From an uncultured Lentisphaeria bacterium (lineage in GTDB: Bacteria > Verrucomicrobiota > Lentisphaeria > Victivallales > UBA1829), in NCBI GenBank assembly GCA_949282305.1, contig CASDPB010000016.1, positions 1 through 42,237 of the forward strand: a DNA stretch of 42,237 nt, in the 5' to 3' direction. Positions 2,878 through 23,251 of the stretch are shown here, one piece after another; the stretch's first letter is position 1, and every line of letters starts with the position of its first letter. The notes under the pieces were generated by a model. It had not been told where the DNA came from and made no database searches. It saw nothing but the letters and a program-made list of their open reading frames with translations. Made by a program: the position numbers and the translations under genes.

Positions 2878-4185
2878 ATGGGCATTGACGGAGATACTTT
2901 GACAGTGGTAAACGAAAGAGGGGGCAAGGCGCCCGCGTTCCTGATCGGAATCCAGGATGCGGACTGTTCCCATGCGTCCGCCATGGAGTATCTGGATGAG
3001 CTGCGCGAGCTCGTGAACACTCTTGAAATTCCCGTCGCCGGAGAGAAAATCGTTTCCGTAAGACAGATCAATCCGAAATTTTATGTCGGTTCCGGCAAAA
3101 TTCAGGAACTGAAGGCGGAGGCGCAGGCGCATGGGGCTTCCATTCTGGTTTTCGACTGCGAACTCGGTCCCTCCCAGCAGCGCAATATTGAAAAAGAGTG
3201 CTCCATGAAGGTGTTCGACCGTCAGGAGGTCATCCTTGACATTTTCGCGGAACGGGCGCGGACCCGGGAGGCGGTGCTTCAGGTGGAGCTTGCGCGCAAC
3301 CGTTATTATCTGCCGCGGCTGACCGGCGCATGGTCGCATCTTTCCCGTCAGCGGGGCGGAGCGCTCGGCACGCGAGGCGAGGGCGAGAAACAGATCGAAT
3401 ATGACCGGCGCATGGTCAAACGCCGTATTTCCGCTCTGGAAGAAGAACTGAAACTGGTTCGCAAACAGCGTTCGACCCAGCGCAAGGGACGCTTGCGGAA
3501 TCCTATCTGCAACTGTGCGATCATCGGCTATACCAACGCGGGCAAATCATCGCTTCTGAATGCCCTGACCGGTGCGGATGTGCTGGCGGAAAACAAACTT
3601 TTCGCGACGCTTGACCCGACGACGCGCCGCCTGGTTCTGCCCGACAGGCAGGAACTCCTGCTGACGGATACCGTCGGTTTCGTCCGCAAACTTCCGCACA
3701 CTCTGGTGGAGGCGTTCAAGTCGACGCTTGAAGAGGCGGTTATCGCGGATTTTCTCCTGCTGGTGCTGGACATTTCCAGTCCGCATGTGGAATCCCATTG
3801 GGAAACGACGCTTTCGGTTCTCTCTGAACTGGATGCGGCGGACAAGCGGATGCTGGTCGTATTCAACAAGTGCGATCTGCAGAAGGATCCCGTGGTTCTT
3901 GCCCGGATCCGTTCGATTGCACCGGATGGAATATTTATCTCCTGTTTTACGAAAGAAGGCTTCGGAGAACTTCAAAGTGCACTTTCTTCGTATTCTCGCG
4001 GACAAAGTTGTATTTTGGAACTTGAAATTCCGCCTTCGCGGTCCGATATTATCGCCTTGCTGCATTCCAAAGGACATATCTATGAATCTTCGTGGTCTGA
4101 ATCCGGGCTGTTCGAAGCCGTGGTGAATGTCCCGGCGGAGTATCAGGAGTTTTTTTCGGAGTTCGCAAAGCAGGAACCGGAATGA
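2878..4185 (+). CDS. hflX: Ribosome-associated GTPase HflX
   Basis: HflX is a GTPase that binds ribosomes and can split or rescue stalled ones under stress. The N-terminal HflX domain (about 25-200) includes INPKFYVGSGKIQEL, FDCELGPSQQRNIE and a helical linker with the Gly-rich GGALGTRGEGEKQIE. The G domain has the P-loop GYTNAGKS (217-224), switch I DPTTRR, G3 DTVGF (264-268) and G4 NKCD (330-333). The length of 435 residues is normal. The gene follows pgsA by three bases with no strong ribosome-binding site, which suggests translational coupling. Confidence 0.92.
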   Translation: MGIDGDTLTVVNERGGKAPAFLIGIQDADCSHASAMEYLDELRELVNTLEIPVAGEKIVSVRQINPKFYVGSGKIQELKAEAQAHGASILVFDCELGPSQQRNIEKECSMKVFDRQEVILDIFAERARTREAVLQVELARNRYYLPRLTGAWSHLSRQRGGALGTRGEGEKQIEYDRRMVKRRISALEEELKLVRKQRSTQRKGRLRNPICNCAIIGYTNAGKSSLLNALTGADVLAENKLFATLDPTTRRLVLPDRQELLLTDTVGFVRKLPHTLVEAFKSTLEEAVIADFLLLVLDISSPHVESHWETTLSVLSELDAADKRMLVVFNKCDLQKDPVVLARIRSIAPDGIFISCFTKEGFGELQSALSSYSRGQSCILELEIPPSRSDIIALLHSKGHIYESSWSESGLFEAVVNVPAEYQEFFSEFAKQEPE

Positions 4186-4220
4186 TTTTATGTGAATGAC
4201 AACCAATCGGCGGCGGAGGC

Positions 4221-4234
4221 TTCGGCATGCCGAA
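4221..4234. repeat. Perfect 14-bp palindrome between hflX and the next gene
   Basis: TTCGGCATGCCGAA is a perfect palindrome in the 66-base gap, 18 bases before the next start codon. A near-identical hairpin (TTCGGCATCTGCCGAA) lies at 26018-26033. It could be a weak hairpin in the leader or a protein-binding site. No T-run follows, so it is not a convincing terminator. Confidence 0.35.
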
Positions 4235-4251
4235 ACAAAGGAATGGGATAG

Positions 4252-7200
4252 ATGAAAAAGAAGATATTTTGGAATGGAAGCATTTTTACGCTGATTCTTG
4301 CCGCGGTTCTGCTGGCGGCTCCCGATCTTTCCGCGCAGGAAACGGGCGCAGCGGCTGCCCGCCGCGAAATTCCGCGCGATCTCTGGAACCTCTGGCGCAA
4401 AGGATTTGAACTCTTTGAACGGGGAGAAATGAAAATGATCTCCGGAAAATATGAAGAGTCCATCCCTTTCTATCAGCAGTCCCTGGACGCGTTCAACCAG
4501 GTCAAAAAGCAGAACCCGAACTGGAACAAAAGCGTGATTGATTACCGTATCGGTCTGTCCATGCGCCGCATCGCATCCGCCAGACGCAAGGCGAAAGAAG
4601 CCGCGGAATCTGCAAAACGCAGGGAGGAACGCAGAAAATATGAGGCGGAAGCAAAGGCAATCAGGGAAAAAGATGAAAAATACAAAGCTGTCAGCGCAGA
4701 AAACGAGAAGCTGAGAAAACAGCTTGAGGCGCTTCAGGGGGAATTGAAAGACGTTCGTTACAATGCGGAACGCGGCAATGCCGCCATCCGGCAGATCAAG
4801 GAACTGCTCGCTGAACGGGATGTCCTTGAAAAGAAACTGGCGGTTCTGAATCTCCAGTATACGGAACTTCTGGAAAAGCATAAAAAGGCGTCTATCTCCC
4901 CGGAAATGGAAAAGCTCCTGACCACGGAACAGGCAAGAAGCGCCGCTTTCATGAAACTCATCAAAGAGCAGAACAAGGAACTGGAGAACATCAGAAAACA
5001 GTACAGCGAACTGACCGCGGAAAAGGAAAAACGCGATAAAATGCTGGAAGAGGTTTCCAAAACACTTTCCAATGAGAAAACTTTTGCCGAGGTGGAACGC
5101 AGGAAACTTCAGGACGATCTCGCAGCAGCCAGGAAAAAACTGGAGGAGACGGAAAATAAACTCAAGGTTTCCGCAGATGCTCTTGCCGAAAAGACACGTG
5201 CGGCGGAAGAGGCCGTCGAACAGGTCAACAGACTGAAGGCGGAGCAGCCCCTTGCCGCTTCCGCACGCAGAATTGAGGCGGAAGCCGCCGCGGTGAAAAA
5301 GGATAATGAAACGCTCCGGAAAGCGGCGGCGGAGGCTGTCGCCGAAAAGACGGCGCTGACGGAAAAACTGGCGAAGAACATGGAGGAAAGTGCAAAACTG
5401 AAAAAGGATCTTGTGGAAAACATTGAGCAGCGCAATTCCTTTGCAAAAGCGAATGACTCCATGTCGAAACGGCTTGCCGAACTGGAAAAAAACTCCGGAA
5501 AACTGGCTGAGGACTGCGCTTCGCTGAAGAAAGAGCTTGCAAAGGCAACTGCCGAACGCGATCTCTTTGCAAAAAAAGTGAATGATAATTTCAACGATAC
5601 GGCGGATCGGCGCATTGCCGAATTGAAAACACAAATCGCGTCTCTCAACACGGAACTTGCCTCTCAGAAGAAAACGAATGAAACTCTTGCCGCCGCGTCC
5701 CGGAAACAGGTGGAGGAGTCTGCAAAACTCTCTGCCGCGAAAGCGGAGCTTGAAACGCAGTTGAAAAAACTGAATGCGGATCTTGCCGGACAGTCCGCAG
5801 CCGCCGATCAGCTGGAGCGGAAAACAGCGGAACTCAAAGCACTTCAGGAACAGCTTGCCGCAAAGGATGCCGCGGGCAGGAAACTGGCAAAGGAAATGGA
5901 GACCTTGAAACTTTCTCTTGCCGCGTCGAAGACGGCTTCCACGGATTCCAAAGGTGTGGACACCGCGCGTCTGGAAACCGCGATAGCGGCATTGACGGCA
6001 AAGGTGACGGCAACGGAAAAATCTCTCAAGGAGGTTACGGAATCCAGAGACGAGCTTGAGAACCGGATGAAAACCATGAAGGAACAGATTGCTGAATCCG
6101 GCAGACTCGCCGGGGAGAATACGGAACTGAAACAAAAGATTTCGGAACTCAACGGACAGCTTGCCGCCCTGGAACAGTCCAGAAAGGCTCTCGAAACGGC
6201 AAGAAAATCTCTGGAAACGGAAGTCTCGGAGCTCAAGAGCAAGTCTGAAAAGGCGACGGAACTTTCCGCCGCTCCGGATGCGGCAAAAGCCGAACTTACC
6301 AGGCTGACGGCTTCCCTGATCGAACTCCGTGAGGCGAATGCGCAGTATGAAAATGCAGTAAGAAATCTGACTTCCGCCAGAAAACGGCTGGAAACGGAAA
6401 AAGATGAACTTGCCCGGAAGCTCGCCGAAGCGGAAAAGCAGCTGGAGGCACGGGACATCGCGCCGAACAATTCCATTGTGGCAAAGGAAAATCTGGACTT
6501 GAAGGAGAAGGTGGTCCGCAGTGAAAAACTCTATGAGGAGCTGAAGGCGGAACGCAATGAACTGGCTTCGCGGCGCATTGCCCTGGACAAGGAGGTCGTG
6601 GAGCTTCGCCGTGAAAATGAAGCATTGAAGAAAAGCGAAACACTGCTGAAGGCTGATCTGAAGCGCTGGACAGAAGGCGCCGGCGGTGCGGGCGATGACG
6701 CAATCGCCAAGAAGAATCAGGCGATAGACGAACTGATTAAGGAACTGGAAGCCGGCAAGGCAGTTCAGAGAAAGATGGAACTGGAGATGACCGATCTCCG
6801 CAATGAGGCGTCCCGCCAGAAAATCCGCGCGGACAAGGCGCTGGAAACGGCAAAAAAAGCGGTGGATGATTCCAGAAGATTCCGCCGCGAGCTGACGAAT
6901 CTGCGTGCGGATATTGAAGACGGCATGATTCCCGTGAAGTCCTCCGGCAGACAGGAAGAACGTGTGACGAAGACGGAGCCGGAAAAGAACGTGAAGTCCG
7001 AGGAGTCCGCTTTGGTTGTGGAAGAGAAACCGGCGTATGACGTCAAGGAATATCAGCAGGCGATGGACAATGCGCGCGCAGCGGAAACGAAGAAGGACTG
7101 GGGCACAGCCCTCTGGCAGTACTGGCGGGCGGCGGACATCGCCGGGAAGAAGGCGGAGCCTTATCTGGCTCTGGTCCGTGTTCATCTCCAGCGCAATGAA

Positions 7201-7284
7201 AAGGAATCTGCGGAGAAGGCATACCGCAAGGCGCTTCAGTACGGAGCCGAGCGTGATACCTCTCTGGAAGAACAGTTCAAATAA
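4252..7284 (+). CDS. Exported coiled-coil protein with TPR-like ends
   Basis: The product has 1010 residues and no named function that I recognise. Residues 1-29 form a signal peptide (KKK, then a hydrophobic run ending DLSAQ). Residues about 45-105 (FELFERGEMKMISGKYEESI) and about 925-1005 (DWGTALWQYWRAADIAGKKA, EKAYRKALQYG) look like TPR or half-TPR helices. Nearly everything between, about 110-890, is charged heptad-like sequence rich in Glu, Lys, Ala and Leu, predicting a very long coiled coil perhaps 100 nm in length. It probably acts in the periplasm or envelope, perhaps as a spacer or scaffold. It lies directly upstream of the YbaB-family gene and recR, where dnaX often sits in other bacteria. 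A ribosome site (GGAATGGG) precedes the start. Confidence 0.75.
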   Translation: MKKKIFWNGSIFTLILAAVLLAAPDLSAQETGAAAARREIPRDLWNLWRKGFELFERGEMKMISGKYEESIPFYQQSLDAFNQVKKQNPNWNKSVIDYRIGLSMRRIASARRKAKEAAESAKRREERRKYEAEAKAIREKDEKYKAVSAENEKLRKQLEALQGELKDVRYNAERGNAAIRQIKELLAERDVLEKKLAVLNLQYTELLEKHKKASISPEMEKLLTTEQARSAAFMKLIKEQNKELENIRKQYSELTAEKEKRDKMLEEVSKTLSNEKTFAEVERRKLQDDLAAARKKLEETENKLKVSADALAEKTRAAEEAVEQVNRLKAEQPLAASARRIEAEAAAVKKDNETLRKAAAEAVAEKTALTEKLAKNMEESAKLKKDLVENIEQRNSFAKANDSMSKRLAELEKNSGKLAEDCASLKKELAKATAERDLFAKKVNDNFNDTADRRIAELKTQIASLNTELASQKKTNETLAAASRKQVEESAKLSAAKAELETQLKKLNADLAGQSAAADQLERKTAELKALQEQLAAKDAAGRKLAKEMETLKLSLAASKTASTDSKGVDTARLETAIAALTAKVTATEKSLKEVTESRDELENRMKTMKEQIAESGRLAGENTELKQKISELNGQLAALEQSRKALETARKSLETEVSELKSKSEKATELSAAPDAAKAELTRLTASLIELREANAQYENAVRNLTSARKRLETEKDELARKLAEAEKQLEARDIAPNNSIVAKENLDLKEKVVRSEKLYEELKAERNELASRRIALDKEVVELRRENEALKKSETLLKADLKRWTEGAGGAGDDAIAKKNQAIDELIKELEAGKAVQRKMELEMTDLRNEASRQKIRADKALETAKKAVDDSRRFRRELTNLRADIEDGMIPVKSSGRQEERVTKTEPEKNVKSEESALVVEEKPAYDVKEYQQAMDNARAAETKKDWGTALWQYWRAADIAGKKAEPYLALVRVHLQRNEKESAEKAYRKALQYGAERDTSLEEQFK

Positions 7285-7312
7285 CCAAATCAAAAAGGCA
7301 GGATGAAGTAAA

Positions 7313-7645
7313 ATGTCCATGTTTGGCAATCTCGGTGAAATGGCGGGACTCATGAAGAAATTCGGTGAGATCCAGAAAAATATGAAGAAAATGAAGGAAG
7401 AACTTGCGTCGATCGAAGTCGCGGGAAAAAATGCGGCAGGACAGGTTGAAGTTGTCGTTTCCGGCGATTTCAATGTGAAGAAGGTCTACATTGCCCCCTC
7501 TCTTGTTGAAATGAAGGACGCTTCGATTCTGGAATCCGCCGTGTTTGAAGCGATGAACAACGCTCTTATGCAGGCGAAGACGGAGAGCGCGAAGAAACTT
7601 TCCGAAGCGACCGGCGGGATCAACATTCCGGGAATCACCGGGTAA
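7313..7645 (+). CDS. YbaB/EbfC family nucleoid-associated protein
   Basis: A 110-residue protein of the YbaB/EbfC family, which are small dimeric DNA-binding proteins usually encoded next to recR. Recognisable parts are the helical N-terminus (MAGLMKKFGEIQKNMKKMKEEL), the beta region AAGQVEVVVSGDFNVKKVYI with the family's G-x-V-x-V-x2-[ST]-G pattern, and a C-terminal helix with AMNNALMQAKTESAKKL. AGGATGAAG precedes the ATG. recR begins eight bases after its end, so the two are almost certainly co-transcribed, as in many bacteria. Family members bind DNA without strict sequence preference. Confidence 0.9.
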   Translation: MSMFGNLGEMAGLMKKFGEIQKNMKKMKEELASIEVAGKNAAGQVEVVVSGDFNVKKVYIAPSLVEMKDASILESAVFEAMNNALMQAKTESAKKLSEATGGINIPGITG

Positions 7646-10278: not shown

Positions 10279-12618
10279 ATGAAAAATGAACTTTACAGCG
10301 CCCTGAAGCGATACTTCGGATTCGATTCCTTTCTTGACCATCAGGAAAACATTGTCAATGATGTTCTGAACGGAGAGGATATTTGCGTCGTCATGCCGAC
10401 CGGCGCGGGAAAATCACTCTGTTACCAGCTGCCGCTTCTGATGCGTCCCGGATACAGCATCGTGGTTTCGCCGCTGATTTCCCTGATGAAGGATCAGGTG
10501 GATACCCTGCGCGGACGGGGAATTCCGGCGGCGTTTGTCAATACAAGCCTGTCCGCGGCGGAGCAGTTTGCGATTCTGAGGGACGCGGCAGGGGGGAAAG
10601 TGAAGCTGCTGTATGTCGCTCCGGAGCGTTTTCAGACGAATTCCTTTCGCGGGTTTCTGCAGTCGAATCCCCCCGAAGCGCTGGTCGTGGATGAAGCGCA
10701 CTGCATCAGCCAGTGGGGACATGATTTCCGTCCGTCATATCTGCGGCTCGGAGAAATGATCGAGACATTCGGCATCCCGCAGGTCTGTGCGTTTACGGCG
10801 ACCGCGACTCCGCATGTGCGGGAAGATATTGTCCGGCAGCTCCGGCGTCCGGAGATGACCTTGCATGTCGCAGGGTTCAAGCGTCCGAATCTTGCGTTTT
10901 CCGTGGTGCACGCCGGAGGCGCGGAACAGAAGAACGCCTTCATCCGCAGACTGCTGGCAAAAAAGCGGGTGCCGACCATCATCTACACATCTACGAGAAA
11001 GGCAGTGGAGCAGCTTCAGGATGAGTTCAAATGTATAGCCTATCATGCCGGGATGTCCGATTCGGAACGGACGGATGCCCAGGAACGTTTCATGAACGAA
11101 CCCTGTCCGGTTCTGGTCGCCACCAACGCATTCGGCATGGGAATCGACCGCCCGGATGTGCGCCGCGTGATCCATTACAATATTCCGGGTTCGATTGAGG
11201 CATACTATCAGGAGGCGGGACGCGCGGGCAGGGACGGCGAACCCGCGGAATGTATTCTGCTTTATTCCTACAGCGACCGTTTTATCCAGGAGTTTCTGAT
11301 AGACCTGAACAATCCGCCGAAGGAAATTGTGGAGGAGGTCTATGAAGTGCTCCTCAAGGAGTCGCGCAGACGCCGGGACACGGTTCTGGAAATGACGATG
11401 GCACAGATTCTGCCTCATGTGGCGGATGCGAAATCGGAAGGACAGATCGGGGCGGCGCTGAGCATTCTGGAACAGAACAATTACATTGCGCGTGCCTACA
11501 ATGCCCATGACCGTGTCCATCTGTATTTCACCGGTGATCCCGAAACGCTGTGCCGGGAGCATGAAGCGCAGGCAACGCAGCGATCCCGCTTCATTTACCG
11601 TTTTCTTGCGGCGAAAGGCAGCCGCGCCCTTCTGGAAAAAGAGTATACCTATGAGGAACTGGCACGGATCGGCGGGCTCAATGTGGAGCAGATCAAGCGG
11701 GTGATTGCGAATCTGAACGGTTCCGTCCTGAATTATACGATACCTTTCCGCGGACGCGCCACGGAGCTGCTCCGCCCTGAAAAAGAGGAGCTGGACATTG
11801 ATTTTACCGAACTGGAATACAAACGCCGGCTGGAAACGGAACGTCTGGAGGATATGATCCGTTATACGAGAAATGCGAAGTGCCGGCAGGCGTATCTGAT
11901 TTCCTACTTCGGAGAGGATACGGGGAATTGGAAATGTGAAAACTGTGATCTCTGCTCCGAGAATGCGGCATACTCCCGGCAGCTGACGAAGCGCGAACAG
12001 GAAGCCGTCGTCATGATTCTGCAGGCGGTTCAGGCATTCGACGGACGGCTGGGGGGAGGGCGCCTGAGCCAGATTCTCGCCGGTGCACGCCGTCCGGAGA
12101 CCACCAGATACGGGTATGACCGCGATCCGTTCTTCGGCAGGCTGAAATCTTTAAGCCAGAATAACATTCTGCTTCTGCTGAAGGCGCTGGAAGCGGCAAA
12201 TTATTTGACACGGACAGGAAACCCCGAGTATCCGTGTCTCGTGCTGAGCCGGCTTGGCGCCGACGTGCTTTGCGGAGGAAAAATACTTTCTCTCGCGATT
12301 CCGGATCTAAAATCTGCGGAGCCGGAACGACCGAAAAGGGAAAGGAGGAAAGCCGCCGGACGCGGAGAGATCAGGGAGCGGGTTCTTTACGGAAATGATG
12401 AAGAGCTGTTTGAACATCTGCGCGAGCTTCGTGCGGAACTGGCGGCAAAGAAACGGGTTCCGGCTTACTGCATCCTGCCGGACGCCGCATTGCGCGAGTT
12501 TGCCGAAAAACGCCCGTTTTCCGTTCCCGAAGCGGCTTTGATCCGCGGCGTCGGCAATGCAAAACTGCGCACGATTGTGCCGTTCTTTCTGGAAGCGATC
12601 CAGAAGTGGAGCAGGTAG
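10279..12618 (+). CDS. recQ: ATP-dependent DNA helicase RecQ
   Basis: RecQ is a 3'-5' superfamily 2 helicase acting in recombination and repair. Motifs seen are 0 (FGFDSFLDHQENIV), I/Walker A (MPTGAGKS, 39-46), II (VVDEAHCISQWGHDFRPSY), III (FTATATP), and IV-VI (VATNAFGMGIDRPDVRRVIHYNIP, YYQEAGRAGRDG). A zinc module (CRQAYLISYF ... CENCDLC), an RQC winged helix and a C-terminal HRDC domain (HLRELRAELAAKKRVPAYCILP) follow. It has 779 residues against about 600 for many RecQ proteins; part of the extra lies in a basic linker before the HRDC domain (RPKRERRKAAGR). ATG 10279 fits the family start; an ATG at 10243 would add 12 residues and lies inside the promoter. Confidence 0.93.
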   Translation: MKNELYSALKRYFGFDSFLDHQENIVNDVLNGEDICVVMPTGAGKSLCYQLPLLMRPGYSIVVSPLISLMKDQVDTLRGRGIPAAFVNTSLSAAEQFAILRDAAGGKVKLLYVAPERFQTNSFRGFLQSNPPEALVVDEAHCISQWGHDFRPSYLRLGEMIETFGIPQVCAFTATATPHVREDIVRQLRRPEMTLHVAGFKRPNLAFSVVHAGGAEQKNAFIRRLLAKKRVPTIIYTSTRKAVEQLQDEFKCIAYHAGMSDSERTDAQERFMNEPCPVLVATNAFGMGIDRPDVRRVIHYNIPGSIEAYYQEAGRAGRDGEPAECILLYSYSDRFIQEFLIDLNNPPKEIVEEVYEVLLKESRRRRDTVLEMTMAQILPHVADAKSEGQIGAALSILEQNNYIARAYNAHDRVHLYFTGDPETLCREHEAQATQRSRFIYRFLAAKGSRALLEKEYTYEELARIGGLNVEQIKRVIANLNGSVLNYTIPFRGRATELLRPEKEELDIDFTELEYKRRLETERLEDMIRYTRNAKCRQAYLISYFGEDTGNWKCENCDLCSENAAYSRQLTKREQEAVVMILQAVQAFDGRLGGGRLSQILAGARRPETTRYGYDRDPFFGRLKSLSQNNILLLLKALEAANYLTRTGNPEYPCLVLSRLGADVLCGGKILSLAIPDLKSAEPERPKRERRKAAGRGEIRERVLYGNDEELFEHLRELRAELAAKKRVPAYCILPDAALREFAEKRPFSVPEAALIRGVGNAKLRTIVPFFLEAIQKWSR

Positions 12619-12623
12619 GAGCA

Positions 12624-12643
12624 GGGCACGCGGCAGCGTGCCC
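12624..12643 (+). terminator. GC-rich hairpin after recQ
   Basis: GGGCACGC (12624-12631) pairs perfectly with GCGTGCCC (12636-12643) around a GGCA loop, six bases after the recQ stop. It lies between convergent genes. Only a short T-rich stretch (TTGTCAGTTC) follows, so termination may be inefficient or protein-assisted. Confidence 0.6.
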
Positions 12644-12656
12644 TTGTCAGTTCATC

Positions 12657-13211
12657 TCATTTGTTGAAAATCTTGTAGTTGCGCTCGGAATTCTTGACGA
12701 GACCGTTTGCCGTCGCGGGATCGAACGGGCCTTCCACTGTGACAATCATTGTTTCGTTGTCCGTCAGGAGTTCCGGCTTGAAGGAACGGTAATACATTCC
12801 ATCAATTACAAACGCGAGTTCGCTGGAACTTCCCTTGGCGCGCATATTTACGGAAAGCGCACTCCAGATTTTCTGTCCCCGGTCGCTGAGTGTGATGATC
12901 AGGTCGAAGAAATCGGGATCGTTTTTGCGCTGAACCATGCCGATTTTCACAAAGTCGCGCGAATGCAGATAGGAGTTCTTGTTGACGCAGACCGTGCCGC
13001 CGGCAAAGGACTCCACCTCTTTTTCCATCATGTCACCGCGCTGATATTTGATGATGTCATGGATCGACACCACATAGCTTGGGGTTTGGTCGACCTCGTC
13101 GTTGAAATACTTGTCCGGATCGGCAAGCATCTCCTCGCAGGAAGATGCACCCATCAGAAAAATCGCGGCGGCACCTGCCGCGACAGCGGAAAACATGCGT
13201 TTCAGTTTCAT
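12657..13211 (-). CDS. Mla-linked lipoprotein, resembling the SecD P1 head region
   Basis: A 184-residue protein with a signal peptide and a likely lipobox ending at Cys25 (LMGASSC); the -3 residue is Ala, which is tolerated but not ideal. The C-terminal half (FAGGTVCVNKNSYL, DLIITLSDRGQKIWSAL, ELAFVIDGMYYRSFKP, VEGPFDPATANGLV) recalls the periplasmic head of SecD: a beta-rich fold with a Leu-T-x2-G-x2 motif and a strand-helix end. That resemblance is by eye only. It is the last gene of the mlaEFD operon, 35 bases after mlaD, with a good ribosome site (AAGGAG). Its position suggests a periplasmic partner of the transporter, perhaps doing part of the job of MlaC, which is absent. The function is not established. 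Confidence 0.65.
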   Translation of the reverse strand: MKLKRMFSAVAAGAAAIFLMGASSCEEMLADPDKYFNDEVDQTPSYVVSIHDIIKYQRGDMMEKEVESFAGGTVCVNKNSYLHSRDFVKIGMVQRKNDPDFFDLIITLSDRGQKIWSALSVNMRAKGSSSELAFVIDGMYYRSFKPELLTDNETMIVTVEGPFDPATANGLVKNSERNYKIFNK

Positions 13212-13246
13212 TGCTTCAAACTCCTTGTCTTTGTTTCCGATACGGC

Positions 13247-14323
13247 TCAGAGAGCACCAAGCAGGACGCTGCCGAAGGTGGCGACCGGCGCCATCTCGCG
13301 CAAATCATCCACCGCGCTGCGGATTTCCCTGACCGTATCACGCATTTCGTTGTAAAGGGAATCATCGGTCATCAGTTTGTTCAATGTTCCCTTTTTATTG
13401 CTCATCATTTTCGCAAGAGTGTCCAAATTCTCAAGCGCCGAATTCAAATTGTTGTAGAAGCGTCCATCGTCCATCATGAACTTCGCAAGACTTCCCTTGT
13501 CCGTGTTCAGCTTTACCGCAAACGCATTCATGTTCTTCATGAACATCGTCATTTCCCGATATGCCTCCTCGTCGTTCAGGAGCTTGCCGAGAGTTCCCCT
13601 GCCGGACTGGATTCCGGCAAGAATCGCGTCAAACTTCTTTGAGAATGCGGAGAGTTCCACGAATGCCTTCTGAGCGTCCACGTAAAATGCGGGATCGGTG
13701 AAGAGTTTGCCGAGAGTTCCCTTTCCGGCTTTGATCTCCTCGCAGATGTCATTCAGGTTTTCGGCATTTTCCTCAATTCTCTTCAGTGCGTCGCGAATCT
13801 TTTCCAGGACGCCGCCTTCCAGAATCACTTCCCGGAAATATTTTTCATCCTCGCGGAATGCGGCGATCAGTTCCGAAGCCTCCTTGATGATGTCAATCGG
13901 CGGCAGACCGTCGAATACCGTGTCAACGGGATAGGCTTCGCCTTCCGGCGTGCCGGGATTGATGTTCACATAAGCGCCGCCGAATACGGAGGAATTCTGG
14001 ATCAGCATTTCATAGCCCTTGTAAATGCGGATCTCTTTGCGGAGCTTCATTCTCACGATGACCGCATTGTTTCCGGGGGCAAGCTCCAGAGAATCGACCG
14101 TGCCCATTTCCACGCCGATGATCTTGACCTTGTCGTTCACCGCAAGAGTGCTGGCGTGGGGAAAGCGTGCAGAAATATAAAAATGTTTTCTCGTATCGAA
14201 GTAATCCTTGCCGCGGATCATCACGGTAAAGTAAAACAGAATGCACAGGGCACCGATGCAGAACAGTCCCGTCAGAAATTCCGGAGAGAACAGAAGGTTG
14301 CGTTTCCGGTTTGTAAGATTCAT
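13247..14323 (-). CDS. MlaD/MCE-domain lipid transport protein
   Basis: This is the substrate-binding MCE subunit of an Mla-type phospholipid ABC transporter. One transmembrane helix (about 14-36) precedes an MCE domain (about 45-125) containing RFPHASTLAVNDKVKIIGVE and VFGGAYVNINPG. The long C-terminal part, about 145-345, is helical and carries four copies of a G-[TS]-L-x-K-[LF] motif at residues 202, 243, 277 and 312, each followed by an acidic turn and a helix. E. coli MlaD (183 residues) lacks this tail; longer MCE proteins use such helices to bridge the periplasm. Start ATG 14323 overlaps the mlaF stop by four bases. Confidence 0.85.
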   Translation of the reverse strand: MNLTNRKRNLLFSPEFLTGLFCIGALCILFYFTVMIRGKDYFDTRKHFYISARFPHASTLAVNDKVKIIGVEMGTVDSLELAPGNNAVIVRMKLRKEIRIYKGYEMLIQNSSVFGGAYVNINPGTPEGEAYPVDTVFDGLPPIDIIKEASELIAAFREDEKYFREVILEGGVLEKIRDALKRIEENAENLNDICEEIKAGKGTLGKLFTDPAFYVDAQKAFVELSAFSKKFDAILAGIQSGRGTLGKLLNDEEAYREMTMFMKNMNAFAVKLNTDKGSLAKFMMDDGRFYNNLNSALENLDTLAKMMSNKKGTLNKLMTDDSLYNEMRDTVREIRSAVDDLREMAPVATFGSVLLGAL

Positions 14324-15069
14324 AATACACCAGCCTTTCGGGTATGAAATTGTGCGGAGATAAATTCTCTGACCAACGGATTTTCACTCTTTATGAAATC
14401 GGAGGGCGTCCCGCATTCTATCATGGCGCCCTCATAAAGCATTGCAACCGTATCACCGATATTCAATGCGCTGACCAGGTCATGCGTCACGACAACGGAA
14501 GTCATGCTGTATTTGTTCTTGAGCATGTCGATCAGCCCGTCGATTTTGCGCGACATGACAGGATCCAGTCCGGAAGTCGGCTCATCGTAGAGCATGATCT
14601 TCGGCTCGCACACCACAGCCCGGGCAAGCCCGGCTCTCTTCACCATGCCTCCGGAAATTTCCCCGGGCATTTTGTACATGGAGTCTTTCAGTTCCAGAAA
14701 ATCCAGCATTGCCATGACTTTTTCCCGGATCTGCTCCTCGGTATAGCTGTAACGTTCGCGCAAAGGCAGAGCCACGTTGTCATAAATATTCATCCAGTTC
14801 ATCAATGCGCCGCCCTGAAACAGCATTCCGGTTCTGGAACGCAGGGCTTCCAGATCACGGCGGCGCATGGATTCCACGTGCAGACCGTCCACAATCACAC
14901 TGCCTGAATCCGGCTGAAGCAGCCCGATGATATGGGAAAGCGTCACCGATTTTCCGGTGCCGGACGGCCCGACGATGATGAAGGTCTCGCCCTCCTTCAC
15001 ATGGAAGGAAAGAGCGTCCAGAACCTTGCGCCCGCCAAGCGTTTTGTGTACATCGCGAAACTCGATCAT
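14320..15069 (-). CDS. mlaF: Phospholipid ABC transporter ATP-binding protein MlaF
   Basis: This is the cytoplasmic ATPase that powers the MlaE permease. Its 249 residues contain Walker A GPSGTGKS (34-41), the MlaF-type signature ISGGMVKRAGLARA, Walker B IMLYDEPTSGLDP and the H-loop VVVTHDL. The start at 15069 (MIEFRDVHKTLGG) is set by homology and by overlap with the mlaE stop (TGATG, one shared base). The same frame is open for 60 codons further upstream, but that part lies entirely within mlaE and is not protein-like. Confidence 0.9.
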   Translation of the reverse strand: MIEFRDVHKTLGGRKVLDALSFHVKEGETFIIVGPSGTGKSVTLSHIIGLLQPDSGSVIVDGLHVESMRRRDLEALRSRTGMLFQGGALMNWMNIYDNVALPLRERYSYTEEQIREKVMAMLDFLELKDSMYKMPGEISGGMVKRAGLARAVVCEPKIMLYDEPTSGLDPVMSRKIDGLIDMLKNKYSMTSVVVTHDLVSALNIGDTVAMLYEGAMIECGTPSDFIKSENPLVREFISAQFHTRKAGVL

Positions 15070-15839
15070 CAGTAAAACATCCTCGTTATGATATAGCCGA
15101 CAATCAGGATGACCAGAAAACATGCGACCACCGACTTCTTCGTAGCCAGCCCCACGCCGACCGCGCCATCCTTCGCGACCATCCCCTGATGGCAGCTGAT
15201 CGCCACAATGATGATCGCAAACACCCACGCCTTGAATACGCCGACCCATAATTCCCGTTCATAGAGCATGAAACGCACATTGTCGAAATACATGGTCCAG
15301 CCGACACCCAGCTGAGTATAGGCGACCAGTCCCCCGCCGAGAATGCCGATCAGGTCAGTATACATCGTCAGCACGGGACACATCACCATCATCGCCAGCA
15401 AACGCGGCGCCACAAGAAAACGCACCGGGTTGATCGACATCACTTCCAGCGCCGCGAGCTCCTGCGAAACCTTCATCGTCCCCAGCAGTGCCGCCATGCC
15501 GGAACCAACGCTTGCCGCAAGAATCAGCGCGGTCATGAACGGCCCCATTTCGCGGAACATCGTCTGCGCCACCAGAAAACCGACGCGCATTTCCTGTCCA
15601 TAGGTTTTCAGGATCAGGCCCGCCTGAAGCGCAAGGATCATGCCGGTGAAGAGCGCGACCACGGAAGTTACGCCGAAACTTCTGACGCCGCAGAGCATCA
15701 TCTGCCGGTAGACCTCCTTCCGGTTCCGCCAGAGGGACGGAAGAAACAGAAAGGCAAGCAGGATCATCCGCACGCCGCCGCCGACGCGCGTCAGAAACTC
15801 AATGACCTTTTTCCCGAACGCAAAAACCGGTTTGTTCAT
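15069..15839 (-). CDS. mlaE: Phospholipid ABC transporter permease MlaE
   Basis: This inner-membrane permease moves phospholipids between the inner membrane and the MCE subunit. The 256 residues carry several hydrophobic helices and family signatures: VTSVVALFTGMILALQAG, QEMRVGFLVAQTMFREMGPFM, GSGMAALLGTMKVSQELAALEVM and PRLLAMMVMCPVL. ATG 15839 has GTGGTGAAA before it; a GTG at 15848 is an alternative that adds three residues. It lies 47 bases downstream of the WPL-repeat gene on the same strand, so that gene probably leads the operon. Confidence 0.9.
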   Translation of the reverse strand: MNKPVFAFGKKVIEFLTRVGGGVRMILLAFLFLPSLWRNRKEVYRQMMLCGVRSFGVTSVVALFTGMILALQAGLILKTYGQEMRVGFLVAQTMFREMGPFMTALILAASVGSGMAALLGTMKVSQELAALEVMSINPVRFLVAPRLLAMMVMCPVLTMYTDLIGILGGGLVAYTQLGVGWTMYFDNVRFMLYERELWVGVFKAWVFAIIIVAISCHQGMVAKDGAVGVGLATKKSVVACFLVILIVGYIITRMFY

Positions 15840-15885: not shown

Positions 15886-17325
15886 TTACAGAGAAAAATC
15901 AAGGCAGTAAAACAGGCGGACGCACGTATTTTTCCCCTGATTCCTGATATTGACAAGCCCGAAGAGAATGTCGTATTCGGATTTTCCCGCACAAGGACGG
16001 TCCTGCGAATAGAAGGGCCCTATGGAAAAACCGCTGCCGTCCGCGGTTCGATAGCCTCCGGACAGTCCCCACAGAATATCGAATGCCCTCCCTTTCTCAT
16101 TCCGGGTCACTTCAAAAAAACGCCAGAACGCGGCATAGTTCCGTTCCACAAAGCCAAGCTGCTTCACAGGAACGAAATCAAGTCCGTGCATTTCAGAACT
16201 TCCGCCGTTCGTCCGCTGCGAAAGAAACGGCCAGAGATGGGTATAAGAGGAATACTCTCTCCTGGCTTCCGGATCATATACGCTGCGTCTCAGATACAGA
16301 GGCAGGAAGGCATGCCAGTGAGTGCGTCGGAAATTGCCTTCCGAGGTCAGATTCAATCCCAGCGGCCAGAGAAAATAGGAGTAATAGGCATGGTCGGAAA
16401 CCGCTTCCCCCCAGAACGGCCAGAAATAAAGGCAGAATCCCTTGCCGCCATTCAGATCCTTTCCGTATTTGAACAGAGGCCACAACACACTCAACGCCAT
16501 CTGTCTGTCCCTGAATGTCTTATAGGAAAAAAGCGGCGGCAGGACAGTCAGATTCGCAATTCCGTTCCATTGTTCATATCCGCCCAGGGGAACGGAGAGA
16601 AACGCGAAATCTTCCGGGTTTTTCCGGGATTGCGCGATATTCAGCAGCGGCCAGAGAAAGGAGACGTTCTTCCGTATGCCTTCGACAGTGCGTTCCGCAT
16701 AGAGCGGAAAAATGCGGAACCCCTTCATGCCGGGGCCGTGTTCCAGATTGAACAGCGGCCAGAGAAAACCGTTGCTGACCACATGGTTCTTTTCCCCGTA
16801 TTTGTAAAGCGGAAACAGGATGAACTGCATCCGCTGATAGGAGAAGAAGTTATACATATTTCCGTAAAACGGAAAGAAAAACCAGGAACAGGTCCCGTTT
16901 TTATGCCGTTCCAGAAACCATAACGGAAAAAGATAGTGTTCATAAGAATCGTTTTTCCCGGTGGAACTGAAATAGGGAAGGAGCCAGAAATAACTGCCGG
17001 AGCGGGTCTTGCGGTATATGGACAGCGGCCAGACAATATCCGAGGCAAAGCGTCCGTCCGCCTTGGTTTCCATGCTCCAGACCGGACGAAACGCCGTCAG
17101 GGACTCCCCGTCCGCCTTGCAATAGGATTCAAACAACGGACCGAGAATGCGCAAATGCTTCCTTTTCCCGGTTACGGGATTGTCCGGCTTGTAGACCAGC
17201 AGCGGCGGAAGGTTGACGGAGATACGGGAGTTCTCCTCCGGCGGACAGGGCGGCTGCACCGGCTCCAGCGCGACGGCGGAGGAAGATACACCCGCAAGCA
17301 CTGCCAATATCATAAAAAAACGCAT
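15886..17325 (-). CDS. WPL-repeat exported protein at the head of the mla operon
   Basis: I do not recognise a characterised homologue. The 479 residues begin with a signal peptide (MRFFMILAVLAGVSSSAVA). From about residue 75 to 450 the protein is built of roughly 13-15 units of 20-35 residues. Each unit centres on an aromatic-rich strand of the form [FLY]-[LF]-[WF]-P-[LF], for example DIVWPLSIY, GFLWPLFNL, SFLWPLLNI, SVLWPLFKYG, YFLWPLGLNL and THLWPFLSQR. Short polar, often Gly-containing turns join them. Alternating strands with aromatic girdles suggest a beta-barrel or beta-propeller in the outer membrane (inference). The start at 17325 has GAGGAAA upstream; an in-frame start at 17364 would precede the signal peptide with unrelated sequence. 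Its place 47 bases before mlaE suggests it is the outer-membrane partner of this Mla system. Confidence 0.7.
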   Translation of the reverse strand: MRFFMILAVLAGVSSSAVALEPVQPPCPPEENSRISVNLPPLLVYKPDNPVTGKRKHLRILGPLFESYCKADGESLTAFRPVWSMETKADGRFASDIVWPLSIYRKTRSGSYFWLLPYFSSTGKNDSYEHYLFPLWFLERHKNGTCSWFFFPFYGNMYNFFSYQRMQFILFPLYKYGEKNHVVSNGFLWPLFNLEHGPGMKGFRIFPLYAERTVEGIRKNVSFLWPLLNIAQSRKNPEDFAFLSVPLGGYEQWNGIANLTVLPPLFSYKTFRDRQMALSVLWPLFKYGKDLNGGKGFCLYFWPFWGEAVSDHAYYSYFLWPLGLNLTSEGNFRRTHWHAFLPLYLRRSVYDPEARREYSSYTHLWPFLSQRTNGGSSEMHGLDFVPVKQLGFVERNYAAFWRFFEVTRNEKGRAFDILWGLSGGYRTADGSGFSIGPFYSQDRPCAGKSEYDILFGLVNIRNQGKNTCVRLFYCLDFSL

Positions 17326-17369: not shown

Positions 17370-17397
17370 AATATACATGCGGTTATTCAACTTGCAA
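17370..17397 (-). promoter_or_regulatory. Promoter of the WPL-repeat/mla operon
   Basis: On the minus strand TTGCAA (17397-17392) and TATATT (17375-17370) are 16 bases apart, about 45 bases before the ATG at 17325. A GAGGAAA ribosome site sits seven bases before that ATG. No other promoter is obvious between the operon's genes, which are tightly packed. Confidence 0.5.
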
Positions 17398-21889: not shown

Positions 21890-23251
21890 TCAAAGGCGCA
21901 GCCACATGTCATGCAGATGAGCGAACATTCTTCTGCACCATCCGCAATGTTCATATCGAACATGATATTTCCGGACTGCCTTCTGTGCGAAATCCATGTA
22001 GAAATCGTATATCCCGCCATCCGGGGTGATAGGATTCCAGTTCCGTAATGCGTCTTCCGCGGACTGCGCCCGGAGTTTACGCATATTTTCGATATATTGC
22101 CTCAGAAAAGCTGACTGGCAGAGATATTTTTCCGGAATCGCATAATGACTCATGTTCCAAAGAAAGAAATTGTCACGGTCCCTCGGTTTTTTCTTTGTGA
22201 CGTCAGAAAAGTTCTTTAAATCGGTGACATCGGCTATTCCGCTGAAATAGCCGCACGGAGAAATCAGATAACGGTTCAGAAAAGCAGACTGCAGACCAAT
22301 TGTGCCAAATTGGACGACAGCCCCGTCGATATAGGAGAGCAGAACCTGAGAGAAGTTCGCGATCCTGCCGGAAATCGGTTCATGAATTAAATTAGGATAT
22401 GACAGTTTCAGCACATCAATCTGCTGTTCTGAATAGAGCGGTTCCACCGGATGCTGGGTAAGTATGATCCCTATGTCCGGTGGAACGGAACTCATCACGT
22501 GTTCCAGAAATTCCAGTTGAGAAGGATAAACAGAATGAGCCTCAATCTCATAATTCCGGTCTGTTCCGAGCGGCAGGATAAAAAGCATACGGTATTTCTG
22601 ATAATATTTCCTGACAAACCGATCCGTTTCGTGGCTTCTGTGGAGAGCGGTAAAAATCAAATTGCGGAAAGAAGTGAGTTTCTCCCTGTCTCTGCGCAGA
22701 TTTTCCGGGTCATACGGCAATTCATTGATCTGCTGTGCGAATCGGGAATTGAAAGCCTGATTGCTGCGTCCCCAGGGATCCAGAAAAAATGTTTTGGGGT
22801 AGGGGGCTCTTGAAAAAAGCGAATATTCCAGATGAAGTATCAGCGCATCCGGATATAGATCCTGCAAAAACGGAACAGGCGTATCGGTAATAATCAAATC
22901 CGGCGTGAAATCCTGAAGACATTTCCGATAGAGATTGGCAAGATATTTTCCATAGCTGTCGCTGTTCTGCTCCTTCTGCCAATGGCAGAGGCTTTTCAGA
23001 ATATCGAATTGATAATGTCCGGTAAGAATATTCTGCTCTAAAGTATGAAGCTCCGTATTTTCCGGGAATTGCAGTTTTTCTTTTCTGGCGTAAGCCGCCA
23101 GTTCTTTACTGAGGATAAGATGAAATGTGCTTGACGGATAAGCATCCGCTAAAACAGTCTGCAACTTTGTATACCATTTGGATAGTCTGACTGTCGAACC
23201 GGGGATTGAGGCGGAATATAATACAGGATTTATATGAAATAAAACATTCAT
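21890..23251 (-). CDS. Putative GT-B glycosyltransferase, capsule-synthesis-like
   Basis: I cannot assign this 453-residue protein to a named family with certainty. The N-terminus (MNVLFHINPVLYSAS) looks like a GT-B Rossmann strand. DLIITDTPVPFLQDLYPDALILHLEYSLF resembles the donor- or acceptor-binding part of such enzymes. Further on come RMLFILPLGTDRN, DIGIILTQHPVEP and GAVVQFGTIGLQSAFLNRYLISP, a pattern like the 'H-P ... S-[ST]-x-G-x-E-A' region of capsular polysaccharide (Kdo transferase KpsC/KpsS-like) and CDP-glycerol transferase proteins. The gene is more AT-rich than its neighbours (inspected, not computed), which suggests acquisition. It is likely cytosolic and works with the GT2 gene downstream. 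Confidence 0.55.
   Translation of the reverse strand: MNVLFHINPVLYSASIPGSTVRLSKWYTKLQTVLADAYPSSTFHLILSKELAAYARKEKLQFPENTELHTLEQNILTGHYQFDILKSLCHWQKEQNSDSYGKYLANLYRKCLQDFTPDLIITDTPVPFLQDLYPDALILHLEYSLFSRAPYPKTFFLDPWGRSNQAFNSRFAQQINELPYDPENLRRDREKLTSFRNLIFTALHRSHETDRFVRKYYQKYRMLFILPLGTDRNYEIEAHSVYPSQLEFLEHVMSSVPPDIGIILTQHPVEPLYSEQQIDVLKLSYPNLIHEPISGRIANFSQVLLSYIDGAVVQFGTIGLQSAFLNRYLISPCGYFSGIADVTDLKNFSDVTKKKPRDRDNFFLWNMSHYAIPEKYLCQSAFLRQYIENMRKLRAQSAEDALRNWNPITPDGGIYDFYMDFAQKAVRKYHVRYEHCGWCRRMFAHLHDMWLRL

Follow-up and report, generated by a model that had tools for sequence, protein, structure and literature searches.

Two described systems provide the closest comparison for the locus analyzed here: the Mla pathway of Proteobacteria (MlaA-MlaC-MlaBDEF) and the minimal MlaEFD of Veillonella (PMC10665443). 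In both of them, as in our locus, mlaE, mlaF and mlaD are located in one operon that encodes an ABC/MCE phospholipid transporter. MlaABC are mostly proteobacterial, and the beta-barrel of MlaD is absent in PVC bacteria (PMC10665443), so that the manner in which the PVC Mla system reaches the outer membrane is an open question. In another MCE system, Pqi, the partner protein PqiC is likewise encoded together with the transporter; it is located at the outer membrane and forms an octameric toroid (PMC10897342).

The DNA under study (the window, 42,237 nucleotides) derives from an uncultured Lentisphaeria bacterium of the phylum Verrucomicrobiota. In contrast to the proteobacterial and Veillonella systems, its mlaEFD genes are preceded by a gene for a repeat protein with recurring [W/F]-P turns (termed here the W-P protein), MlaC and usually MlaA are missing, and MlaD lacks a barrel domain and carries instead a short conserved hydrophobic tail. 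Judged from sequence comparison, the W-P protein is very probably exported and dedicated to one type of MlaEFD as its partner.

Gene organization of the locus

The W-P gene is the first of an operon that continues with mlaE, mlaF and mlaD, all on the minus strand (Table 1). The ends of mlaE and mlaF, and those of mlaF and mlaD, overlap by a few bases. Together, the three mla products are predicted to make up the core components of a phospholipid ABC transporter of the MCE type. This operon is the main clue to the function of the W-P protein, and one that was not visible to the preliminary description of the gene.

Table 1. Features of the W-P/mla operon in the window (positions in nucleotides unless stated otherwise).
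Feature	Position	Strand	Remarks
W-P hairpin-repeat protein gene	15886..17325	-	479 aa; ATG at 17325, stop 15886-15888
Signal-peptide-like N-terminus of the W-P protein	17266..17325	-	MRFFMILAVLAGVSSSAVAL; type I-like, from the sequence
23 units of ~18.6 residues, centred on [W/F]-P	15889..17166	-	From the family alignment
Unit centres 1-12	residues 63, 81, 100, 117, 134, 152, 172, 190, 207, 226, 246, 264		Numbering of the window protein
Unit centres 13-23	residues 283, 303, 321, 342, 366, 386, 402, 420, 437, 457, 473		Numbering of the window protein
mlaE-like permease	15069..15839	-	PF02405, E=1e-65; 46 nt past the W-P gene stop
mlaF-like ATPase	14320..15072	-	PF00005, E=1.9e-29; best NCBIfam model MlaF; overlaps mlaE stop
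mlaD-like MCE protein	13247..14323	-	358 aa; PF02470, E=3.8e-16; overlaps mlaF stop
Hydrophobic C-terminus of MlaD	13250..13291	-	APVATFGSVLLGAL; conserved in MlaDs linked to the W-P gene
Promoter-like site, TTGCAA-16-TATATT, 5' of the W-P gene	17370..17397	-	Weak: 5 such sites in the region versus 3.1 expected
Terminator-like stem-loop and T run past mlaD	13162..13184	-	8 such sites versus 5.5 expected

As the preliminary description had stated, a protein with a signal peptide is encoded here (on the minus strand), its N-terminus being hydrophobic and signal-like. A simple signal test was passed by 98 of 133 relatives, a shortfall that is due in part to uncertain start codons. Only 24 of the 133 have a lipobox-like motif, in which the Cys is not followed by Asp, indicating that membrane anchoring is not uniform in the family.

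The earlier statement that the repeat belongs to no characterised family was borne out as well. No match to the W-P protein was obtained in Pfam (E≤1), NCBIfam, PHROG or the PDB sequences, and the same was true of Pfam (E≤0.1) and PDB sequence searches with 14 family members (the window protein and 13 relatives). In particular, neither PF04333 (MlaA) nor PF05494 (MlaC) was matched in the Pfam search, and membership in either family was rejected because the profile searches were empty. Unlike PqiC, the W-P protein has no PqiC Pfam match. No description of such a protein was found in the literature searched, which left most subscription journals outside its range. As far as these tools show, the W-P component, its repeat and its association with mla thus appear to be undescribed, and the pump itself is of a known kind.

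Several other frames of the window lack a Pfam match. A 249-residue protein (12606-13355, plus strand) is convergent with mlaD, and a protein in the same place is found at three related loci (L012-L014), with 43-56% identity. A frame of 1010 residues (4252-7284, plus strand) occupies an A-rich stretch (AT skew ~0.27), and a 1308-residue open frame (3547-7473) lies on the opposite strand. Finally, a frame of 453 residues (21890-23251, minus strand) in a low-GC stretch (0.43) is situated beside glycosyltransferases, in what is possibly a surface-polysaccharide locus.

Distribution and linkage to mlaEFD

The named relatives within the same genus are from uncultured Victivallales/Lentisphaeria bacteria and share 63% identity with the window protein. 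Searches with single sequences detected relatives in 15 of 137 genomes of the order, and a profile built from 14 members was used for the phylum-wide search (388 sampled genomes of Verrucomicrobiota). Matches were found in 191 of the 388, of which those in 172 had E<1e-20 and the remainder were weak. In one class of the phylum the gene was present in 288 of 318 genomes (91%), and in 134 of 143 among the better assemblies. No relatives were seen among viral contigs in one scan.

The gene is closely tied to mla. Across the phylum, 133 loci were compared; in 116 the next gene 3' on the same strand is mlaE, and in 110 the complete set of mlaE, mlaF and mlaD, encoded together as in the window, was retained. 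Of 71 further loci, 64 were linked to mla, so that overall 180 of 204 loci have mlaE as the gene that directly follows, in the same orientation. The 24 unlinked loci comprise three at a contig end and 21 exceptions; about 10% of the members are encoded away from mla genes, and no common alternative partner was seen among the neighbours of ten of them. Three such members (L114, L122 and L129) bear a lipobox.

In a control set of 28 mlaE loci, from 13 genomes lacking the repeat gene, such a protein was absent from all. Since MlaE is nearly universal in the phylum (359 of 388 genomes), the repeat gene is a feature of one sort of MlaEFD. Within the window's own family, two MlaE genes were found in every one of the seven sampled carriers, and among the 14 genomes without the repeat gene one MlaE was found in 13 and none in the other, counts that are not independent owing to shared ancestry.

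In another family of the order, a lipoprotein-like protein of 583 residues with W-P units (L019:112-1860; also L030) shows weak similarity to the family (E ~1e-4) and adjoins two ABC-ATPase-like frames. This case suggests that a wider superfamily of W-P repeat proteins may possibly exist.

A conserved tail on the linked MlaD

Where mlaD accompanies the repeat gene, its product has a short hydrophobic tail at the C-terminus (e.g., DDFRETSPITTFSSIFFGAF). A strict form of this C-terminal motif was present in 87 of the 110 linked MlaDs, and nearly all of the others carry variants, such as GPITAVGVVANALF; of the remainder, two have nothing but the terminal GLF left, and another is truncated or frame-shifted at its end. 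By comparison, 30 of 31 unlinked MlaDs lacked the strict motif, and the single one with a match is from a fragmented genome, in which a linked copy could not be checked. This tail, which lies distally on the MlaD hexamer, may therefore be the point at which the W-P protein is met.

The repeat unit

The W-P-L repeat noted in the preliminary description is real: [WF]P[LF] occurs 11 times in the protein, whereas 5000 shuffles of its composition gave 0.84 on average and never more than 6; the strict form [FL]x[WF]P[LF] occurs four times, against a mean of 0.17. Its dimensions had to be revised, since the original count was estimated from one sequence and ours is derived from an alignment of 134 family sequences. 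Rather than about 13-15 units at a spacing of 20-35 residues, there are 23 units at a spacing of 16-24 residues (mean, 18.6). A proline, or an equivalent residue, marks the centre of each of the 23 units, the first at residue 63 and the last at 473, and in most units proline is conserved in 97-100% of the 134 sequences. Hydrophobic residues are concentrated at positions -2 to +2 around the proline, on both sides of the chain, and charge climbs to about half of the residues at -7 and +6, i.e., at the far ends of the unit.

Covariation and the predicted fold

Covariation was analyzed by mean-field DCA of 205 sequences (effective number, ~161), and the signal was averaged across all 23 units. It showed two antiparallel ridges: one between unit n and unit n+1 across the polar turn (e.g., +3/-4, z=5.2; +5/-5, z=4.2) and the other within the unit, across the W-P position (e.g., -5/+4, z=5.0; -7/+6, z=4.4). 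The summed scores were 8.4 for the near side (n/n+1), 7.9 within the unit and 0.7 for the far side; the within-unit value compares with a maximum of 3.9 among 2000 nulls with random unit centres. The analysis with a 20-letter alphabet agreed (10.1, 7.0 and 1.7, respectively). Charge swaps are evident at residues 165/178 (+- in 45 sequences, -+ in 41, ++ in 8 and -- in 11) and also at residues 450/461, and the mean charge covariance over all units was uninformative.

Four units (8-11) were modelled with AlphaFold from 20 rows, which were distinct repeats from only four related proteins (that of the window and three of its relatives), with a pLDDT of 77.7 and a pTM of 0.59. The model contains strands of six residues, broken at every W-P and at every polar loop. 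A full-length model, from four rows of 64% identity, reached a pLDDT of only 28. Given the fold-back at W-P and pairing on the near side only, the unit is predicted, by covariation and the four-unit model in agreement, to be a short hairpin that turns at W-P, and the chain to be a meander of about 46 short strands. The all-beta strand pairs that the preliminary description had placed after the signal peptide are thereby supported.

The same data do not favor a closed barrel with an aromatic girdle and long membrane strands, as had been envisaged there. Long strands paired over their full length with both neighbours, as in outer-membrane barrels, were not found, and a long-strand membrane barrel was rejected owing to the absence of far-side covariation, which a meander of about 20 long strands would require. 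First-to-last strand pairing, which would indicate closure, was indistinguishable from noise in the DCA. In its more general form, the proposal describes a beta-barrel integral to the outer membrane, acting with MlaEFD as a channel. The signal peptide, the antiparallel meander and the 23 regular units would be in keeping with such a channel; moreover, within the order to which the window belongs, F closes the last strand, with a beta-signal-like LF[YW]xLEF at or near the C-terminus, although only 14 of 133 sampled members have a C-terminal F. However, many relatives extend in a tail past the last strand and some carry the lipobox, the far-side pairing of long strands is absent, the fold-back at W-P is strong and the modelled strands have only about six residues. 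Such a channel is quite improbable on this evidence. A propeller is conceivable in principle. Its four-stranded blades would recur every ~40-75 residues, compared with the period of 18.6 residues seen here, and no propeller topped the fold search with the four modelled units.

Taken together, pairing and hydrophobicity indicate no difference between one face of the sheet and the other. The edges do differ: that of the W-P turns is hydrophobic and the opposite one is charged. Such a hydrophobic edge must be buried, either in a membrane, within a ring or spiral, or against lipid. A tight turn with an aromatic residue and a proline in its two middle positions is classically where a cis-proline, type VI turn is found, and we propose that the W-P turns are plausibly of this kind.

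Comparison with known hairpin-repeat proteins

Fold searches with the four-unit model in two libraries yielded no E-value below 0.1. The weak neighbours included Pf MORN1, viral MORN proteins and the single-layer sheet of OspA. The MORN repeat (PF02493) is a 23-residue unit with a GxG / YxGEW consensus, whose proposed role in lipid binding has been questioned (PMC7725318). The architecture indicated by covariation and the four-unit model is MORN-like, in that tandem hairpins of two strands of ~6 residues form one continuous meander. The unit, however, is different: MORN repeats have 23 residues starting with GxG, whereas the W-P unit has about 19 and a [W/F]-P turn, and neither a Pfam MORN match nor a significant Foldseek E-value was obtained. 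Membership in the MORN family was thus rejected, on the basis of the 18.6-residue W/F-P unit and the empty Pfam search.

The beta-flower/Tubby-like domains (PF21784-PF21786, clan CL0395; PMC10584680) share with the W-P protein the use of short hairpins, which in the beta-flower are petals with strand-end aromatics directed toward a hydrophobic centre, and in both groups some members are lipoproteins. In contrast, the beta-flower domains have only 8-12 strands, and [DNEQ]xxG at the hairpin tips. In the absence of a match to PF21784-PF21786 or any other Pfam-A family, this assignment was also rejected.

Proposed role of the W-P protein

Among 45 genomes that carry the gene, 38 lack MlaA (PF04333) and 42 lack MlaC (PF05494). 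The genome of the window has no MlaC, and hence not the six-component Mla system. It does encode an MlaA domain (E=5e-41), at another locus (L254:1354-3399, contig C13), in a predicted lipoprotein of 681 residues in which it is fused to an alpha/beta-hydrolase-like domain. Three relatives, too, have long frames (750-808 residues) that contain MlaA. In addition, the same genome has a second, distinct mlaE-mlaF-mlaD set (L256, contig C84), whose MlaD has 332 residues and is devoid of the hydrophobic tail. Owing to this MlaA domain and the second MlaEFD, the W-P protein cannot count as the only outer component in this genome.

The partnership with MlaEFD is well supported. As to its nature, we consider it probable (at roughly 0.6) that the W-P hairpin array is the envelope partner of a Verrucomicrobiota-type MlaEFD, which passes lipid to or from the distal end of MlaD. 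The 23 short hairpins would fold at their aromatic-proline turns into a continuous antiparallel ribbon of ~46 strands, with a W-P edge that is hydrophobic on both faces and another edge that is charged. The protein would reside at or near the outer membrane, as a lipoprotein in some lineages and in soluble or peripheral form in others. Its hydrophobic edge could bind acyl chains, be seated in the membrane or, if the ribbon curls, line a lumen, and the protein would exchange lipid with the hydrophobic tip of the MlaD hexamer, in whichever direction transport may run. The protein would thus take on the work of MlaA and MlaC, which are absent from most carrier genomes. An outer-membrane site and lipid hand-over with MlaD appear likely because the protein is predicted to be exported, a subset of its relatives have a lipobox, MlaA and MlaC are usually absent and the conserved feature is a hydrophobic one.

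Long repeat arrays often serve as scaffolds. The W-P protein could accordingly act in the periplasm as a scaffold or tether, keeping MlaD, peptidoglycan or the outer membrane in position, with no lipid handling of its own; the doubts raised about lipid binding by the similar MORN hairpins (PMC7725318) would be in line with this, and the conserved MlaD tail could simply dock. It is, however, the hydrophobic W-P edge that is conserved, rather than a polar binding face, and a mere scaffold, co-transcribed with the core of the pump in genomes devoid of MlaA and MlaC, would leave lipid hand-over unfilled. A scaffold is therefore considered unlikely.

At the other extreme, the protein might itself be a conduit for lipid, comparable to the bridge-like lipid transfer proteins: a hydrophobic ribbon or spiral long enough to cross much of the periplasm. 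If extended, 46 strands at 4.8 A would span ~220 A, and the hydrophobic edge is continuous. Against this, MlaD itself already has a long extension past its MCE domain in this system, the AsmA/TamB Pfam models were not matched and the full-length model gave no confident global shape; we regard a conduit of this length as very unlikely.

Returning to the envelope partner that exchanges lipid with MlaD, a more specific version of it can be put forward tentatively, and with less confidence than the general one: the new hairpin-repeat fold may be the phylum's own replacement of MlaA and MlaC, and provide a hydrophobic groove, spiral or lumen through which lipid passes between the tip of the MlaD hexamer and the outer membrane.

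Significance

Since no Pfam or NCBIfam model is matched, profile-based annotation would leave the W-P protein hypothetical in hundreds of genomes. The analysis also brings to light an undescribed type of repeat, the turns of which are formed by an aromatic residue and proline. The gene is nearly universal in one class of the phylum, and, as a conserved, unannotated gene for an exported protein at the head of an mlaEFD operon, it represents a concrete candidate for the outer end of the Mla system in PVC bacteria.
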